IMG/VR virus record: IMGVR_UViG_3300020733_000084
Span: 1 to 22,436 of that record
Reading direction: 5' to 3' (one strand)
Source of the DNA: a virus
Length of the DNA stretch: 22,436 bases
Shown here one piece after another: positions 2,486 through 11,670 of the stretch; the first letter of the stretch is position 1, and every line of letters starts with the position of its first letter. A model generated the notes under the pieces. That model had not been told where the DNA came from and did no database searches. It worked only from the letters and a program-made list of their open reading frames with translations. A program made the position numbers and the translations under genes.

Positions 2486-4921
2486 ATGGGCGGCGGACCA
2501 TCTCCAGCACCGGCACCATCGGCGCCGACACAAACAACAGTCCAGAATACTAATATTCCGGATTATGCACAGCCGTATGTAAGCAATATGCTTAATGCGA
2601 CTCAGTCGCAATTATTTAATACCGATTCCAGTGGTAACATTACTGGCTTTGCTCCCTATGTTCCATATAGCAATAACCCTGCCAATTATGTAGCTGGTTT
2701 TTCTCCGCTTCAACAGCAAGCGCAATCATCCGCAGCTAATTTACAAATGCCTGGTCAATACAATGCCGCTACTGGTATTGCTGGAGCAGCTGGTTTAGGT
2801 TCTTTAGGTATTGCAGGACAAGCTAGCCAAGCCGGACAAAACTTACAAAATACTCTGACTAGCCCTGGTGCTATGGCTCAGTATATGAATCCGTATTTAC
2901 AAAATACATTAGCGCCCGCAGAACAATTACTTAATCAACAGTACGGTATTGCTGGCACTCAAATGGCGGGTCAAGCTACTGGTCAAGGTGCTTTTGGTGG
3001 CACTCGTAATGCACTGCAACAAGGTTTAAACCAACAAAATCAAATGTTGGCCCAAAACCAACTAGTTGGTAACGCTTATAACCAAGCCTATCAAAATGCT
3101 CAGCAACAAGCTATGAATGTAGCTAATACAGGTTTAGCTGGTCAACAAGCCGCATTACAAGGTATGGGTCAAGCTAATACTGCAGCAGGAAATTTAGCCG
3201 GTATTGGTGGTCAGCAGCTTTCTGCACAACAAGGCATTATTGGCACGCAAGCCCAACAAGGTGCTGCACAACAAGCTAATCAACAGCAGATTATTAATCA
3301 GGCTATTCAGAATTACGCTACAGCCCAGCAATATCCATTACTTGAATTGGGCACAATGTCCAATATGTTGCGTGGCCTACCAATGCAGTCACAAACAACT
3401 CAAATTTACCAAGCACAGCCGACTACGGCTCAACAAGCTATTGGTCTTGGCGGTACAGCAGCAGCTCTTGCAGCTGCAACTGGTGGTGGTTCTGCTGCAC
3501 CTGGTGGTATTAGAAAAGGTGGGCAGATTAAAGAAAAGAAAATGGCTAGTGGTGGCATTGCCGACGTTCCCGGGTTTAAATACGGAGCTATTATTAACGA
3601 CCCAAAACTTGAAAATGATGCACGTATGTTAGGTGCTTCTCCAGCACAACCTGGCCAACCAAGCCCATTACAACAACGCATACAAGATCCACAGTTAAAT
3701 CAAAATGAACGCAATATTTTTCAAGGCGTTCAACAAGACCAAGACCGGTTACGTCAAGTACCTGGTGCTGCTCAAGCATTACAACAAGCAGGTCAAATGC
3801 CGCAAATGCCACAGCCACAAATGAATCCACAAGTTATGCAACAAGCTAGATTATCTGGACTTGGGGCTGCAGGTGGCCCAGCATTTAATAGCCAACAATT
3901 TGCTGGCGGCGGTATTATTGCATTTAACGGCGAAGATGATGATCAATTAGTAGATGAAACTCACTTTGGTGTACCAACGGAAGAGCAAGGTTTAACTATG
4001 CCTCCTAAGAGTTTGTCTACTAAAGCTCCTAAAAAGACGCAAACTCCAACAACTTTGGACAAGCAAAATCTTAACAGCCCACAGACACCACAAGATTTTA
4101 TTAGCGCAAGACAGTCGGCTATGAAGTCTTTAGGTTTTGATCAAGGCCCTACCGAAGCAGAAAAAGCTTATGTAGAAAGCCAAAAAGCTGCTGCAAGTAA
4201 AGATGTTCTTAATCGTAATTTATGGCTTGCTGCTGCTCAAGGGTTTGCTAAAATGGGTTCAACTGCTGCTCCTGGTGGTATTTTGCAAGCATTTAATATC
4301 GGTGCACAAGCTGCGTTACCAAGCATTGAAAAAGCTTACGATGCTAATGAAGCTGCTAAAGTTGCTGCCGCTAAAACAGAATCTGATATGTCTGAAGCAC
4401 AACGTAAGTTTGCTGAAGGTGACGTTGACGGTGGCTTTAAAGATTATGACTCCGCCCTACGGAATAAAACAGAGCTTGATGTGGCTAGAATTCATGCTAA
4501 TGCTGCTGGTCAATCTGCTGCTATCGAAAGTAAAGCAATTCAAGACCTCATGAATACTCAAGGTATTTCTTATGGCGAAGCTTATAAACAAGTTAAAGGT
4601 TTAGATGCTAGAGATGCTACAGCTAGAATGACCGCCATGTATCATGCCGACAGCATATTAAATCAAGATACTAAGTATATGGCGCTTAAAATGAGTAAGA
4701 AGCCAGAAGACCAGCAAGCTGCACGTGCTATGCGTGAAGGCATGATTCAAGATTATATGCAGGCTTTAGGACCACAAGGTACAGGACCACAAAATGCGGC
4801 TAAAAACACTGGTACGGCTAACACCGCCGGAGCACCAGTAACTACCAAAGCGGAGTATGATAAGCTACCATCTGGAGCACATTATGTTGCGCCTGACGGT
4901 ACCGTTCGTGTTAAAGGTTAA
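2486..4921 (+). CDS. Gln/Ala-rich virion protein (811 aa), probable ejection/internal protein
   Basis: An AGGA ribosome site lies about eight bases before the ATG. The protein begins MGGGPSPAPAPSAPTQTTVQ, followed by a long Gln/Ala/Gly-rich helical region (about residues 70-290) with repeats of NQQNQ, AQQQA and GQQ type and a GAFGGTRNALQQGLNQQNQ motif. Glycine motifs occur at 353 (MASGGIAD) and 473 (AGGGIIAFNGEDDD). About 560-690 is a charged Ala-rich helical segment, and the C-terminus has SGAHYVAPDGTVRVKG, a short tail I recall from phage structural proteins. No catalytic motif is visible. The glycine motifs resemble those of the 499-aa protein upstream. The position before the 2,246-aa gene supports an internal/ejected virion protein. 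It may assemble as helical bundles, but this is inference. Confidence 0.65.
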   Translation: MGGGPSPAPAPSAPTQTTVQNTNIPDYAQPYVSNMLNATQSQLFNTDSSGNITGFAPYVPYSNNPANYVAGFSPLQQQAQSSAANLQMPGQYNAATGIAGAAGLGSLGIAGQASQAGQNLQNTLTSPGAMAQYMNPYLQNTLAPAEQLLNQQYGIAGTQMAGQATGQGAFGGTRNALQQGLNQQNQMLAQNQLVGNAYNQAYQNAQQQAMNVANTGLAGQQAALQGMGQANTAAGNLAGIGGQQLSAQQGIIGTQAQQGAAQQANQQQIINQAIQNYATAQQYPLLELGTMSNMLRGLPMQSQTTQIYQAQPTTAQQAIGLGGTAAALAAATGGGSAAPGGIRKGGQIKEKKMASGGIADVPGFKYGAIINDPKLENDARMLGASPAQPGQPSPLQQRIQDPQLNQNERNIFQGVQQDQDRLRQVPGAAQALQQAGQMPQMPQPQMNPQVMQQARLSGLGAAGGPAFNSQQFAGGGIIAFNGEDDDQLVDETHFGVPTEEQGLTMPPKSLSTKAPKKTQTPTTLDKQNLNSPQTPQDFISARQSAMKSLGFDQGPTEAEKAYVESQKAAASKDVLNRNLWLAAAQGFAKMGSTAAPGGILQAFNIGAQAALPSIEKAYDANEAAKVAAAKTESDMSEAQRKFAEGDVDGGFKDYDSALRNKTELDVARIHANAAGQSAAIESKAIQDLMNTQGISYGEAYKQVKGLDARDATARMTAMYHADSILNQDTKYMALKMSKKPEDQQAARAMREGMIQDYMQALGPQGTGPQNAAKNTGTANTAGAPVTTKAEYDKLPSGAHYVAPDGTVRVKG

Positions 4922-4929
4922 GGATAACC

Positions 4930-7900
4930 ATGGCTGATTTTTGGCAGAATGATGTTGTTGCTAACAAAGCACCGGCAGCTGATAACTTTTGGGAAAAAGA
5001 TAAAGCGGTAGAGGCCGCCCTTAAAAAAGAAGAAGAGCCAGAAAAAGAAGCTACTACAGTTAGTCAATTAGTAGGTGGATTTAAACAAGTCGGTGCCGAC
5101 TACGATACATTTTTAAAATCTTTAATGTCTCCTAATGAGGCAGCTAAAGAAGCGGCTAAACGCCAAGAAGAAATACAAAAAGAAACAGGCCACGTTCGTG
5201 GGCTTGATGAACTAAGTGAAGCGTATAAAAACGACGGCATTATTGGTGCTGTTGGAGAAGTCGCATCACAAGCGCCTGGCGCTATCGCATCTAGTACAGG
5301 TCAAATGTCTACGGCTATTGCTGGTAACGTAGGGGGCGCTGCAATTGGTACTGCGATTATGCCTGGTATTGGTACAACTATCGGCGGATACCTTGGCGGT
5401 GCTTTAGCTTTATTTCCACAATTTTATGCAGAAAACTTAGCTGAACAGGCTAGAGATCAGCAAGAAAAAGGGGAACCTGTTGATGTTAATAGAGGCAAAG
5501 CTGCATTAGCTGCTGCCGGTCAAGCCGGTTTAGAAGAAGCTGGTATGGCATATGCCTACGGCAAAAACTTACTTAAAAGCATTGTCGGCAAAATGCCTGT
5601 TACTGCGGTAGAAAAAGCTGCGGCCCAAGAAGCTCTTGTTGAATCTGCAAAATCTACATTGGCTTCTGTTGCTAAAGGTGCAGGTAAAGTAGCTTTAGAA
5701 GAATCATTTGTTAACCCAGCACAAGATATTTTACAGCGTGCCCAAGCTGGAGAAGACTTATTTTCTAAAGAAGCTATTGAAGGGTACGGAGCAGCTATTT
5801 ACGGTAGTATTTTACAATCACCATTAGGTGCTGTTGGTGGGTTACATGAAACACGGGCAGCTAGAAAAGAGTTAGCGGCAAAAGGATTAGATAGAAATGG
5901 TCAGCCTCTACCAACACCACCCGCAGATAATAACGCTTTCACGGAGGCTACAAACTATGAAAATACTGGAAATGTCGCCGGAACAAGTGAGCCTGGCGTT
6001 TCTGTGCCTGGAGAACAAGGCGGAGCCGAGTCAGGAATTGCAGGAACTACCGCCGGAGGCATGGGAAGAACTGAGCTACCTGCTGGCGGTGTTACAACAC
6101 GAGAAGAAGAACTCGACAATAAATTAGAAGAAGTAAATAAAAAAATAAATAGCGCTCGTGCTTATATTAAAGATATAAGTGAAGTTGATCCTAACGATGA
6201 ACGGGTCGACCAAGCAAAAGAACATTTATTTGGGTTACAAGAAGAAGCTAAATCTTTAGAGCAAGCACGTGCAGAAGTTAAATCTGAACCAGTAGAAGCT
6301 GAAGAAGAACCAAAAATTGCCGTAGTCGGCGCACGTAAGCCAAAAGCACCAGGCCAAATTGGGTTTGATTTTAATGCGCCCGAACAACCAGCCCCAGAAG
6401 AAATGACCGTTCCGCCTGCTAAAGAAGCGGGTATGCAACTAGAACAGCAAGGCAAGCTGCCAGAAATGAAAGCGCCCGAGCCTATTGAAGAACCAGAGAC
6501 GGCTCGTATGAATCTGGTCGGCCCAGCCGAAAATGTAATGGCTCCCATTACAACTTTTTTTAATAGCATTAAACCTGCCACCATAACACCAGAACAAGTT
6601 TCTCAATACCACAATAACGTTAAGGGTTTCCTTAATGACGTTGCCGAATTTGTTGGTGGTAAAAGTACAGAAGAAGTTAAACGTTATCAAGAAGAAGGGC
6701 AACCAGAACCTACGCCCGTTACTGGTCCAGATGTAAGCGCTCCATTAGAGCCAGGCCCAGAACTTGATAAACGCATGGCAGTTTTAAATAATTTCTTTGA
6801 TAGCCTAAGCCTTGCACCAAAAGAAAAAGAAGCTTTAACTTCTGGTCTGGTTAAGCAATTACCTGGCATGTCGGTTACTGACCAAACAAATGCTTTTAGA
6901 AGTTTATTACGTTTACCTAATATAAATACCGTACGTGGTATTAAAGAGCTGCGTGAAAAGTTTTATGATGCAGTATCTAGGTATGATCGCCGCCGTACAG
7001 GTCAAGATGATTCTGCGCTGCCATATAGCTCTAGAGATACTATGCGTAGCACCGACCCATTGGTCGAGAGACGTATTAATAAAGCCATTAGAGATTTAGA
7101 AAATATACCTAAAGATGAAAGAACTTCAGCAGATAATGCTGCGCATACTTACTTTAGAGCTTGGCCATATATAACTGCAATGCGCTCGGCTGCGTTTGAT
7201 TTAGCCGTTCCGTTTAATAGCCGCTCTAATGGTAGTACATATGCAGGGCAAACATCTGAGACAGCTAAAGAATTTGCTAAGTGGGTAGAAGAAAATTTAC
7301 CTGCCCAAGAGTTCCGCCGCTTTGAAGCTACAGTTAACGAATACAAACGTGAGATTGCACGTGCTGATCAAGCCATAGAAAACATGAACAAACGCCAGCA
7401 AACTGGCAAAGTTGGTACTATCTATGAAAGAATGTTAGGCCGAGCACCTACTGGAAAAGTACCGGGTGTGTTCGATGCTGGTTTAAATAAAAAGCCTGGC
7501 GAAGTTGTTAAGCTAGATCCAAAAGACTTTTATCAATTACACCCAGGCGTTGTAGCTAAAATACAACAGGGCGATTTAAAAGGTGCATTAACTTTACTGG
7601 CTAAAACCCCTAGCCCACAAGCTAGTAATAAAGTTAAGTTTAACGCTAAGTTAGCTCAGCGTTTGCTTGATCTGAATTTGCAGACTTCTTTGCTTACTGA
7701 CAATCAAGAAACTATGGCAGTCCGTTTAGTTAAAGAAGCCAATGGTCAACGCCGCATGGTGCTTCAACATTTCCAAAGCTACGAGTGGGGCAATGAGCTT
7801 ATTAAAAAATATGGTTTAGATAAATCCCCTACTAATGAACAAAACATTAGAGACATATATAAAGGCTTATCAGAAATAGCTGTTAATAAACCTAATATAT

Positions 7901-10900
7901 CTATCGAAGAGTTTTCTCCTATTCTTGCACAATTTAACAAAGCGCTAGAGGCTTTTCATGATGCTGTTGTAACACTAGATTCACCTGGTATTTATGTAGA
8001 TGCTTGGAATACTATTAATTTAAATAGTAAAGCGTTTGGTTTTAGTGAGGGTGTTTTCTTGCATGAATTAACCCACGCTGCTACTTACTATTCTTTAGAT
8101 GAGCAAAACTATAACGATCTAAGCCAGCAACAAAAAGAAGCTGTTAATGAATTAAAAGAACTATATGCCCATGCAACTGAACAGTTTGATAAGCATATGG
8201 TTAAAGGTTTGACAGATAATAAATACATTGAAGTAAATGGTCGTAAATTTATATATGATGAAATTTATTATGGCTTTAACAACATTCATGAGTTTGTAGC
8301 AGAAGCCTATTCAAATTGGGAATTCCAAGACTATCTAAAAGCCATGAAGTATCGTGGCACTGACACTGGTTTATGGAGCAAGTTTGTTCAAAGCGTTATT
8401 AAGTTATTTAAATTAGATAACGTATTAGGGTATACCCTAGCCCATGCCGATGCTATTATGCGTCCTACTCCTGTAGTCAATGGCTATGTAGCTAGTCCAG
8501 CGGTTGTACCTGCCAAGATACGCACGGTACTATCTGGGATGATGCCGACTAACCCAGGTAATCTTGGTTACGTTAATAATTTGTTTAATGGTAAACCCGA
8601 ATTTAGTATGGCTAAAGATGCCATAAAAAACTTTTTAACCAGCGTTAATGATACTGTTCGTCAATATTATTTGGGTGCTTTTACTTTACGTCAGTTAGAT
8701 GAAATTATTGGACGCCGTATTCCACAGGTTCGTGAATTTATTAATAGCACCGAACGCATGCTTGATAGCCGCAATCAACAACTAGAAAAAACAAGGGACA
8801 TTATTAACCCTTGGATGGAATGGCAAAACAAAAATCCAAAAGAAAGCGAGAAGCTTAATGCTTTGATGATTGACTCTACTTTACTTGGTGAAGATCCTGA
8901 CGCTAAAAACGGCAAAACTTCTGATAAAGATATTAATGACGCATGGAATAACCTAAGCGACCAGGCTAAAGATATATACCGAAAGGTTCGTGATTTTTAT
9001 AAACAACAATATGAAAATTACGTATCAATAATTCTTGATAATAAAAAACAATCTATGCTAGGCGCAGGTTTTAGTGAAGCCGATATTGCTGCACACGATA
9101 GAATTAAAAAGTTAAATATTACTGGTATTAAAGAACTACGTGCTCGGCTTGAGAAAAAAGGTCTAGCTGAACCAGATATACGTGCAACTATTGCTGCTGG
9201 TATAAAAGAAGCATTATTAGCTAAAGGGTTTACTAATGAAGAAATTGATGCACACAACCAGTTGTTTGCTATTGAAGATCACTTTGCTCGTAATAAAGTA
9301 GAACCATATTTCCCAATTCGTCGTTTTGGTAAATTCTCAGCTCAATTCTTTAAGGGCAAACAAAAAGAATTTTATACATTTGAATCGTCTTTTGCACGTG
9401 ATAAATTTGTAAGAAAACGTTTAGAAGAATTAGGTAAAACATTTGATCGTCAAAATGATTTGCATTTGGGTAACTCTATACAAGATTTAACTTCATCTAA
9501 CTTGCAAGACTTTGAGTTTTTAAAAAATCTTAGAGACATGATTCAAAATACTCAGGGTGCTGATACTACAGAATTACGTGGCAATTTAAATGCCGCTTTG
9601 GACCAGCTTTATTATTTGACTCTTCCAGATAAAAGCGTACGTAAGATGTTCCTTAACCGTAAAGGAACTGCTGGTATGGATAAAGATATGCTTCGTGCCT
9701 TTGCGCAGTCGGCGTTTCATATGGCCTATCAACAATCTCGTTTTAAGTTTAGCCGTGAACTATCTGGTCACTTAGAAAGAGCACGCCAGTTTGCTTTTGA
9801 TAAAGGCGACATAGAAGGTAAAGTAGATAAGGACTACGTAAAAGAATTAAGCGAGCGCTACAAATTAATTATGAATCCGCCAGATAGCGGCCCCGTTGCA
9901 GGGTTCTTATCCGGTGCTTCTTTTGTATGGTACATGACCTCACCAGCTTCGGCTATAACAAATATGTTAGGTGTACCAGCAGTAGGCTTTCCGGTAATAT
10001 CCGCACGCTACGGTGCTGGAGGAACTGCACGAGCTATGAGAGACTACGCATCTAAGTTTATGAAATCTGGACTGCGTGATGCCGACGGCAATCTTAACTT
10101 CTTCTCACTATCTAATAACGAAAATATCCTATCTAAACTAGAGCGGGAAGCCTATGATCAGTTTGTAGCTGATGGATTATTAGATGTTACATTGCCACAC
10201 GACATTGTCGGCTTAGCCGAAACACCATCTAATCTATATAAAGCACGGTTTCAAAAGGCTATGAACTGGGTTAGTATGCCGTTCCATGTAACAGAACGTG
10301 CCAACCGTGAGATTGTAGCTATGACTTCTTATAAGTTAGCATACGAAAAGTTTATGTCCAAAGGATATAGCGAGAAAGCTGCACAAGAAAAAGCTATTGA
10401 AACAGCTAAAGATTTAACATATAAATCAATGTTTGATTATTCAACATTAAATAAACCTCGTTATTTCCAAAACCCAAGCTTAAAAGTAATTTTGCAATTT
10501 AAACAGTTCTCTCAGCAAATGACTTACTTATTAGCTCGCAGTGCTTATGAATCTATTGGTAAACAGTATTTGCCATATAAAGATTTAGTTGCTATGGAGA
10601 ATGAGGCAAAGAATAATCGTACTAAGTTTGATCCTAAAATGCAGGAAATGCTTAATGATCTTCGTAGTATTCGTGAGTCTATTAGAGAAGACCATAGGCA
10701 GAATAAACCTGGGCTTCCTCCACTTACAGAAGATGAACTGGCTAAAGCTACCGATGACTTTATAAAAGAAACTAGAAGAGAAGCTAGAGCACGTCTTGCT
10801 GGAACTTTAGGTATGACTGCAATTTTTGCTGGGGCTACGGGTTTACCCTTATGGTGGTTGGTATCCGGAATTATGAACGCCATGCACGCAGCTTTTGGTG

Positions 10901-11670
10901 ATGAGGACGATACATGGGATTTTGACAACTGGTTTAAGAACTGGTGTGCCCATACCTTTGGTGGCTTTGTAGGTGATTCTATATCCCGTGGCATAATATC
11001 TCAGACTCTTGGGGCTAACGTAGCCGACCGACTTAGTTTAAATGACCTATGGTTTAGGGATGCTCGTAAGAGTCCTGATGAAGTAACGGCTATGCAGAAC
11101 TTTGTATTTAATGCTCTTGGTCCCACAGCGGGACTAGCTATGAGCTTTGCCGACGCATCTAAACAATGGAGAGAAGGTAATCTTGAGCGAGCTATAGAAA
11201 CAGCCAGCCCAGCCTTTGTTAAGAACTTCCTAAAGGGCGGACGGTTTGCGGTTGAGGGTAGGGCCACAACCTTGCGTGGAAATGAGCTTGTAGGCGACAT
11301 TACGGGGGCCGAAGCAGGATGGCAAGCATTAGGGTTTACCCCAGAACGTGTAGCCCAAAGACAGAAGGCCGACATTGAAATGAAAGCGGCTGAGCAGCAA
11401 ATACTTAACCGCCGTCAATCTTTGCTAGATGCATTCTTTATGGGTATAGATAACCAAGATGCTGATATGGTAGACCGGACTATGGAGAGAATAGGGCAGT
11501 TTAATTTAGCTAATCCAGGTGTTGCCATTACCGGTAGAAACTTAAGCCGTTCGGTACGTGGTCGCTTTAAGCAACGTATCTTAGCCGAAACTACAGGCGG
11601 TATACCAATTAATAAGAAATTGATTGGGGAGCTTAGCAGCATGGGCGACTACGGCGATCCCGACGAATAA
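4930..11670 (+). CDS. Giant polyvalent virion/ejection protein with HExxH metallopeptidase motif (2,246 aa)
   Basis: A strong TAAGGA site precedes the ATG. Order of regions: two FW motifs near the N-terminus (DFWQND at 3, NFWEKD at 19); a Gly/Ala-rich hydrophobic stretch at about 103-166; a low-complexity Gly/Thr/Glu/Pro region with coiled coil (about 330-560); a zinc-protease motif HELTH at 1045-1049 with HEFVAEA at 1120-1126 offering a third ligand (E1121 or E1125); PYFPIRRFGKF from 1458; FDYSTLNKPR at 1835 and QFKQFSQQMTYLL at 1856; a strongly hydrophobic segment at about 1956-1982 (LPLWWLVSGIM); and a soluble C-terminus. The 1458 and 1835-1868 motifs recur in very large phage polyvalent/ejection proteins. 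It is likely packaged in the capsid and injected, where it may form a channel and cleave a host or phage protein. The protease substrate is unknown. It is the last gene of the plus-strand block. Confidence 0.75.
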   Translation: MADFWQNDVVANKAPAADNFWEKDKAVEAALKKEEEPEKEATTVSQLVGGFKQVGADYDTFLKSLMSPNEAAKEAAKRQEEIQKETGHVRGLDELSEAYKNDGIIGAVGEVASQAPGAIASSTGQMSTAIAGNVGGAAIGTAIMPGIGTTIGGYLGGALALFPQFYAENLAEQARDQQEKGEPVDVNRGKAALAAAGQAGLEEAGMAYAYGKNLLKSIVGKMPVTAVEKAAAQEALVESAKSTLASVAKGAGKVALEESFVNPAQDILQRAQAGEDLFSKEAIEGYGAAIYGSILQSPLGAVGGLHETRAARKELAAKGLDRNGQPLPTPPADNNAFTEATNYENTGNVAGTSEPGVSVPGEQGGAESGIAGTTAGGMGRTELPAGGVTTREEELDNKLEEVNKKINSARAYIKDISEVDPNDERVDQAKEHLFGLQEEAKSLEQARAEVKSEPVEAEEEPKIAVVGARKPKAPGQIGFDFNAPEQPAPEEMTVPPAKEAGMQLEQQGKLPEMKAPEPIEEPETARMNLVGPAENVMAPITTFFNSIKPATITPEQVSQYHNNVKGFLNDVAEFVGGKSTEEVKRYQEEGQPEPTPVTGPDVSAPLEPGPELDKRMAVLNNFFDSLSLAPKEKEALTSGLVKQLPGMSVTDQTNAFRSLLRLPNINTVRGIKELREKFYDAVSRYDRRRTGQDDSALPYSSRDTMRSTDPLVERRINKAIRDLENIPKDERTSADNAAHTYFRAWPYITAMRSAAFDLAVPFNSRSNGSTYAGQTSETAKEFAKWVEENLPAQEFRRFEATVNEYKREIARADQAIENMNKRQQTGKVGTIYERMLGRAPTGKVPGVFDAGLNKKPGEVVKLDPKDFYQLHPGVVAKIQQGDLKGALTLLAKTPSPQASNKVKFNAKLAQRLLDLNLQTSLLTDNQETMAVRLVKEANGQRRMVLQHFQSYEWGNELIKKYGLDKSPTNEQNIRDIYKGLSEIAVNKPNISIEEFSPILAQFNKALEAFHDAVVTLDSPGIYVDAWNTINLNSKAFGFSEGVFLHELTHAATYYSLDEQNYNDLSQQQKEAVNELKELYAHATEQFDKHMVKGLTDNKYIEVNGRKFIYDEIYYGFNNIHEFVAEAYSNWEFQDYLKAMKYRGTDTGLWSKFVQSVIKLFKLDNVLGYTLAHADAIMRPTPVVNGYVASPAVVPAKIRTVLSGMMPTNPGNLGYVNNLFNGKPEFSMAKDAIKNFLTSVNDTVRQYYLGAFTLRQLDEIIGRRIPQVREFINSTERMLDSRNQQLEKTRDIINPWMEWQNKNPKESEKLNALMIDSTLLGEDPDAKNGKTSDKDINDAWNNLSDQAKDIYRKVRDFYKQQYENYVSIILDNKKQSMLGAGFSEADIAAHDRIKKLNITGIKELRARLEKKGLAEPDIRATIAAGIKEALLAKGFTNEEIDAHNQLFAIEDHFARNKVEPYFPIRRFGKFSAQFFKGKQKEFYTFESSFARDKFVRKRLEELGKTFDRQNDLHLGNSIQDLTSSNLQDFEFLKNLRDMIQNTQGADTTELRGNLNAALDQLYYLTLPDKSVRKMFLNRKGTAGMDKDMLRAFAQSAFHMAYQQSRFKFSRELSGHLERARQFAFDKGDIEGKVDKDYVKELSERYKLIMNPPDSGPVAGFLSGASFVWYMTSPASAITNMLGVPAVGFPVISARYGAGGTARAMRDYASKFMKSGLRDADGNLNFFSLSNNENILSKLEREAYDQFVADGLLDVTLPHDIVGLAETPSNLYKARFQKAMNWVSMPFHVTERANREIVAMTSYKLAYEKFMSKGYSEKAAQEKAIETAKDLTYKSMFDYSTLNKPRYFQNPSLKVILQFKQFSQQMTYLLARSAYESIGKQYLPYKDLVAMENEAKNNRTKFDPKMQEMLNDLRSIRESIREDHRQNKPGLPPLTEDELAKATDDFIKETRREARARLAGTLGMTAIFAGATGLPLWWLVSGIMNAMHAAFGDEDDTWDFDNWFKNWCAHTFGGFVGDSISRGIISQTLGANVADRLSLNDLWFRDARKSPDEVTAMQNFVFNALGPTAGLAMSFADASKQWREGNLERAIETASPAFVKNFLKGGRFAVEGRATTLRGNELVGDITGAEAGWQALGFTPERVAQRQKADIEMKAAEQQILNRRQSLLDAFFMGIDNQDADMVDRTMERIGQFNLANPGVAITGRNLSRSVRGRFKQRILAETTGGIPINKKLIGELSSMGDYGDPDE

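Follow-up and report, generated by a model that had tools for sequence, protein, structure and literature searches.

A domain of about 330 residues (approximately aa 865-1196) in the middle of a 2,246-aa phage protein is very probably, judging from its sequence and modelled fold, a zincin-like metallopeptidase of the gluzincin type residing in an ejected polyvalent protein. The stretch of DNA analysed, hereafter the window, was a 22,436-base IMG/VR virus record with virion-type genes on the + strand and replication genes on the - strand, the ORF of the giant protein (4930-11670) being the last member of the virion-type set. Phage polyvalent proteins have since 2017 been known to contain zincins, and the window domain is a further member of this class. 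The new link, drawn from sequence comparison, is that the same domain is present in internal virion or ejection proteins of Autographiviridae, PhiM1 gp48 among them.

The two motifs that had drawn attention to this protein, HELTH at residues 1045-1049 and HEFVAEA at 1120-1126, were both present in the + strand ORF. The position given for the pair was correct at its start, nt 8062 (first nucleotide of residue 1045), whereas the end given, 8306, was one base short of the true span, 8062-8307. HELTH was the sole HExxH of the protein; 0.022 such motifs were predicted from its composition, 2.0% of shuffled sequences contained one, and 0.2% of the shuffles had an HExxH followed at the correct spacing by a motif resembling E-F/V-A-E. 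The features located are compiled in Table 1.

Table 1. Features located in and upstream of the giant ORF (nt, window coordinates; aa, residues of the encoded protein)
Feature	Position (nt)	Strand	Basis
Upstream 811-aa ORF, DNA-ejection-protein-like	2486..4921	+	phrog_4287 DNA ejection protein, aa 66-338, E 1.3e-6
Giant polyvalent/ejection-type protein with predicted zincin	4930..11670	+	2,246-aa ORF
N-terminal Gly/Ala-rich hydrophobic stretch, aa 129-147	5314..5370	+	Hydropathy scan
Predicted zincin-like metallopeptidase domain, ~aa 865-1196	7522..8517	+	A5 profile envelope, E 1e-52 (the window sequence itself belongs to that profile)
Predicted zincin sheet strand 1, aa 920-923	7687..7698	+	DSSP of model; aligns with GDTKVEVV-type segment in relatives
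Helical insertion between strands 1 and 2, ~aa 926-1011	7705..7962	+	A5 occupancy; model helices
Predicted strands 2 and 3, aa 1020-1023 and 1028-1031 (GIYV...TINL)	7987..8022	+	Model
HELTH, aa 1045-1049	8062..8076	+	H1045 and H1049 as predicted Zn ligands, E1046 as general base
HEFVAEA, aa 1120-1126	8287..8307	+	Predicted third Zn ligand E1121 (8290-8292)
LPD39 domain (PF18858), aa 1239-1376	8644..9057	+	Pfam E 2.7e-19, above gathering score
PLxRFG/DarB-like C-terminal region, aa 1459-1878	9304..10563	+	NCBIfam NF032893

The giant chain combined an LPD39 domain, the zincin and a PLxRFG/DarB-like region, and is thus a polyvalent protein. It matched the NCBIfam PLxRFG domain-containing protein (E 8e-144) and, at aa 1244-1878, the DarB-like antirestriction PHROG (E 3e-99); tblastn against phages matched 38 records, mostly within aa 1205-2240. 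At curated cut-offs no zincin family was found in Pfam or NCBIfam for the window protein, and no second enzymatic domain was recognized by Pfam, PHROGs or NCBIfam. Upstream of the giant ORF were DNA-ejection-protein-like and virion-structural PHROG matches, which provide a virion-gene setting for the polyvalent protein. Gene context, namely the ejection-protein-like gene directly upstream, together with homology suggests that the giant protein is a virion protein, and by analogy with its homologues 8vb2 and the N4 virion RNA polymerase (vRNAP) it would be packaged and ejected with the DNA. Its hydrophobic N-terminal stretch is possibly membrane-interacting. Two minor matches were seen among the neighbouring genes: a weak, below-cut-off Pfam match to DUF2252 at the C-terminus of the 2486-4921 product, and a GNAT acetyltransferase gene at nt 2026-2484 (Pfam E 1.7e-11), flanked by virion genes.

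Conservation of the candidate catalytic residues was complete. H1045, E1046, H1049 and E1121 were invariant in 55/55 dereplicated relatives, by which a chance origin of the HExxH was ruled out, and HExxH and E1121 were also invariant over 80 aligned sequences with a mean column identity of 20%. The 80 loci came from a scan with domain alignment, in which each distinct protein matched carried HExxH; the retrieval patterns were EFV[AS]E and FSN.EFQ-type motifs, and since HExxH was not among them, its conservation is not a retrieval artefact. An EFVAE-type motif had, however, served as bait, so that E1121 needed independent support. This came from relatives that had been retrieved by tblastn or by profile, in which E1121 was kept (DEF in Pectobacterium phage CX5, KEF in locus L012, KEL in 9sfn, HEF in 8vb2 and HEM in 23sg) but the equivalent of E1125 was replaced, by Q, Y, W, Q and G, respectively. 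Because E1125 varies in these Autographiviridae members while E1121 does not, E1121 rather than E1125 is probably the third zinc ligand. G1020, T1028 and I1029, in strands 2 and 3, were conserved as well.

The predicted fold agreed with these assignments. An AlphaFold2 model of aa 880-1200 built on a deep alignment (80 sequences) reached a pLDDT of 88.1 and a pTM of 0.85; an earlier run with only four sequences (pLDDT 47) was discarded. As assigned by DSSP, the order of elements was helix, strand, insert, strand, strand, HExxH helix (aa 1040-1056) and Glu helix (aa 1119-1128, bearing E1121), which is the zincin core topology. The helical insertion of about 85 residues was present in the window's own clade and missing from most distant relatives. 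In profile comparisons the domain matched the solved phage ejection proteins 9sfn_G (E 1.9e-20), 8vb2_A (1.2e-13) and 23sg_S (4.8e-9). The match to the lethal-factor protease, an established zincin, was weaker (E about 1e-5) and kept the catalytic register, with the HExxH motifs aligned; this alignment stops at 741 in 1j7n numbering, which places residue 735 opposite E1121. Residue 735 we take to be the zinc-binding Glu of lethal factor. VIA-align of the model ranked 8vb2_A at the top (Z 9.0, 3.3 A, 138 residues), while the lethal-factor rows (Z about 7, model residues 1-284) were tied with unrelated helical bundles mainly covering the insertion. Foldseek with the model gave no match against PDB at E<=0.001, a lack to which no weight was given as evidence; among predicted viral structures its top matches were phage proteins of three kinds: polyvalent, internal virion and virion RNA polymerase. 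Some family members, furthermore, weakly matched the zincin Pfam families DUF6782, SprT-like, ATLF and Tox-MPTase4.

The original prediction had described a gluzincin-like protease having two His and, farther along the chain, a Glu, whose fold was to be sought at residues of about 950-1250. The zincin topology of the model and the invariant residues both back that description: as far as the model shows, the HELTH residues do not lie in a non-zincin helix, and far from being poorly conserved they are the same in all 55 dereplicated relatives.

No domain type is commoner in polyvalent proteins than the zincin-like metallopeptidases, which comprise 12 clades (Iyer et al. 2017, PMC5512222), and the N4 vRNAP is one polyvalent protein possessing such a domain (PMC5512222). 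Like the zincins of Iyer et al. (PMC5512222), the window domain has an HExxH helix, a Glu as predicted third ligand on the conserved helix that follows, and a three-stranded sheet, and it lies centrally in a giant phage protein with LPD domains and late genes nearby; unlike them, it has a large helical insertion separating strand 1 from strand 2 and is too divergent for the current Pfam and NCBIfam zincin models. It is also similar to the C1 domain of N4 vRNAP (PMC12633501) in being an HExxH domain inside an encapsidated, ejected giant protein. The virion RNA polymerase PHROG was matched by 60/80 family members, whereas the window protein had no recognized RNA polymerase and its profile match to the solved 11fw_A was weak (E 0.08).

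The DarB-like/PLxRFG giants encoded by PEp14, SopranoGao and Vibrio phage douglas 12A4 have in common with the window protein the C-terminal half from LPD39 (about aa 1205 on). Just upstream of this half the motif is HEILH in PEp14, HELFH in SopranoGao and HELITH in Vibrio phage douglas 12A4, the last of the HExxxH form that has also been reported for polyvalent zincins (Iyer et al., PMC5512222). That a protease in the central place would be unusual, as the original prediction implied, finds no support, given these three giants with HExxH or HExxxH before LPD39 and the prevalence of the domain type (PMC5512222). Nor does the protease simply stand in place of a muramidase, for PEp14 (SLT at aa 57-159, HExxH at 3778), SopranoGao and a Limnohabitans phage (SLT at 16-118, zincin near 600-739) each combine SLT with HExxH or zincin in one chain. 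In PEp14 and SopranoGao the SLT, methylase and helicase domains lie in front, and the window protein is without these. In Vibrio phage douglas 12A4, HELITH lies shortly before LPD39 (aa 2125), and an inorganic pyrophosphatase domain (PF18823) was observed farther upstream, at aa 950-1084.

The homology to solved ejection proteins bears on how the domain has been named. The tetrameric ejection protein (TEP) gp48 of Pectobacterium phage PhiM1 (8vb2) and its relatives among internal virion proteins, 9sfn and 23sg, carry a homologue of the domain in which both HExxH and the counterpart of E1121 are present, in chains that for the gp48 type are shorter than the window protein; the LPD39/PLxRFG half was not recognized in the CX5 homologue. 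PhiM1 TEP Asp268-Asp528 was labelled endolysin/exotransglycosidase-like on the basis of BLASTP and DALI (PMC11440229), and many homologues carry the name 'internal virion protein with endolysin domain', including the CX5 protein (6975-10667), which carries the zincin-type HExxH domain. The reading as a cell-wall enzyme (endolysin or lytic transglycosylase), which these GenBank names and the PhiM1 paper convey, is nevertheless highly improbable. Neither the window protein nor the PhiM1-like CX5 protein, in which the zincin is retained, had an SLT or lysozyme match; where SLT does occur, as in the Limnohabitans phage and PEp14, it is a separate N-terminal domain; and the PHROG named 'endolysin' aligned with CX5 only from profile position 183 on, beyond the SLT end. 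For the window domain an SLT/endolysin identity was rejected, as no such domain was found by Pfam, PHROGs or NCBIfam, and the earlier remark that the giant protein has no obvious muramidase holds for the same three collections. The PhiM1 paper (PMC11440229) contains no 'protease' or 'peptidase' wording and names zinc only in connection with nanoparticles. The endolysin label appears to have been transferred from SLT-bearing family members, and gp48 268-528 is probably mislabelled; we suggest that its label be revised to zinc peptidase. The tie to solved ejection proteins gives well-studied phages a concrete predicted active site, consisting of the two His, E1121 and the base E1046.

As a mechanism, we propose that the giant protein would be packed in the head and ejected together with the DNA, that H1045, H1049 and E1121 would bind Zn2+ with E1046 activating water, and that the zinc peptidase would become active after ejection, with the ejected proteins or a protein of the host as substrate. 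In the literature searched, no published activity or zinc was found for any close relative, nor a substrate for any member of the domain class. Iyer et al. considered three roles: host targeting, self-processing that precedes packaging (as for P1 DdrB), and self-processing that follows packaging or ejection (PMC5512222). A role after ejection is indicated by the presence of the PhiM1 homologue in mature particles and the packaging of N4 vRNAP in unprocessed form. Limited self-processing, of either the ejected chain or its partner ejection proteins, was ranked first, with a chance falling a little short of even, this option being weakened because no second enzyme was recognized in the chain for release by self-cleavage. 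The same lack of another enzyme to release keeps a lesser, still appreciable share of the probability with cleavage of a host protein of the envelope or cytoplasm, ranked second, in which the injected protease would act as an effector on a defence, envelope or regulatory protein of the host and not on the phage chain. Such host targeting, among the possibilities of Iyer et al. (PMC5512222), fits a chain with no other recognized effector enzyme and the weak family likeness to the effector zincins Tox-MPTase4 and ATLF, but the domain spans phages as different as Autographiviridae, N4-like and DarB-like ones and would require a target that is either very conserved or varied. Cleavage of the giant or head proteins during assembly, as inferred for P1 DdrB (Iyer et al., PMC5512222), seems improbable, and less likely than the other substrates that the original prediction had proposed: N4 vRNAP is packaged unprocessed (PMC5512222), and PhiM1 gp48 in the mature particle has 1,103/1,263 residues in the coordinates, the domain included, although a cut within a disordered loop could escape notice.

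It is unlikely, though slightly less so than cleavage during assembly, that the zincin domain is non-catalytic or purely structural. The chance is smaller still that the HExxH binds a metal for other chemistry, as in Fe(II)/alpha-ketoglutarate HExxH enzymes, or that the site is a structural relic. HExxH does occur in non-zincin enzymes, as pointed out in the N4 vRNAP preprint (PMC12633501); against this, the third-ligand Glu and strand order are zincin-like and the profile can be aligned to an enzyme proven to be a zinc protease, and a relic would hardly have kept its catalytic residues invariant despite great divergence. With the zinc peptidase reading preferred, one zincin family might, more speculatively, be a general and largely overlooked enzyme of the podophage ejection machine, a protease that is injected, acts on a conserved target and has been mislabelled endolysin in solved ejectosomes; this is a possibility we hold with clear reservation. 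If true, the family would extend over Autographiviridae, N4-like and DarB-like podophages and act in the newly infected cell.

Varied degrees of relatedness were found among the homologues. IMG/VR relatives had large parts of the chain in common at 38-74% identity, and two contigs from other metagenome samples (L002 and L005) were 100% identical to the giant protein over the compared part, indicating repeated sampling of this phage or of one nearly identical to it. The DNA-level search in phages and the protein search in plasmids gave no match, and the genome-contig scan yielded a single distant relative, in a Bradyrhizobium contig. One relative (L009, 4551-11561) has an N-terminus that starts with three imperfect short repeats (YTAEELGLP-like), the N-termini of other relatives being dissimilar. 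In L032 and L033, one giant protein carries two HExxH motifs, HELTH and HEVSH, about 320 aa apart, which are possibly tandem zincins.
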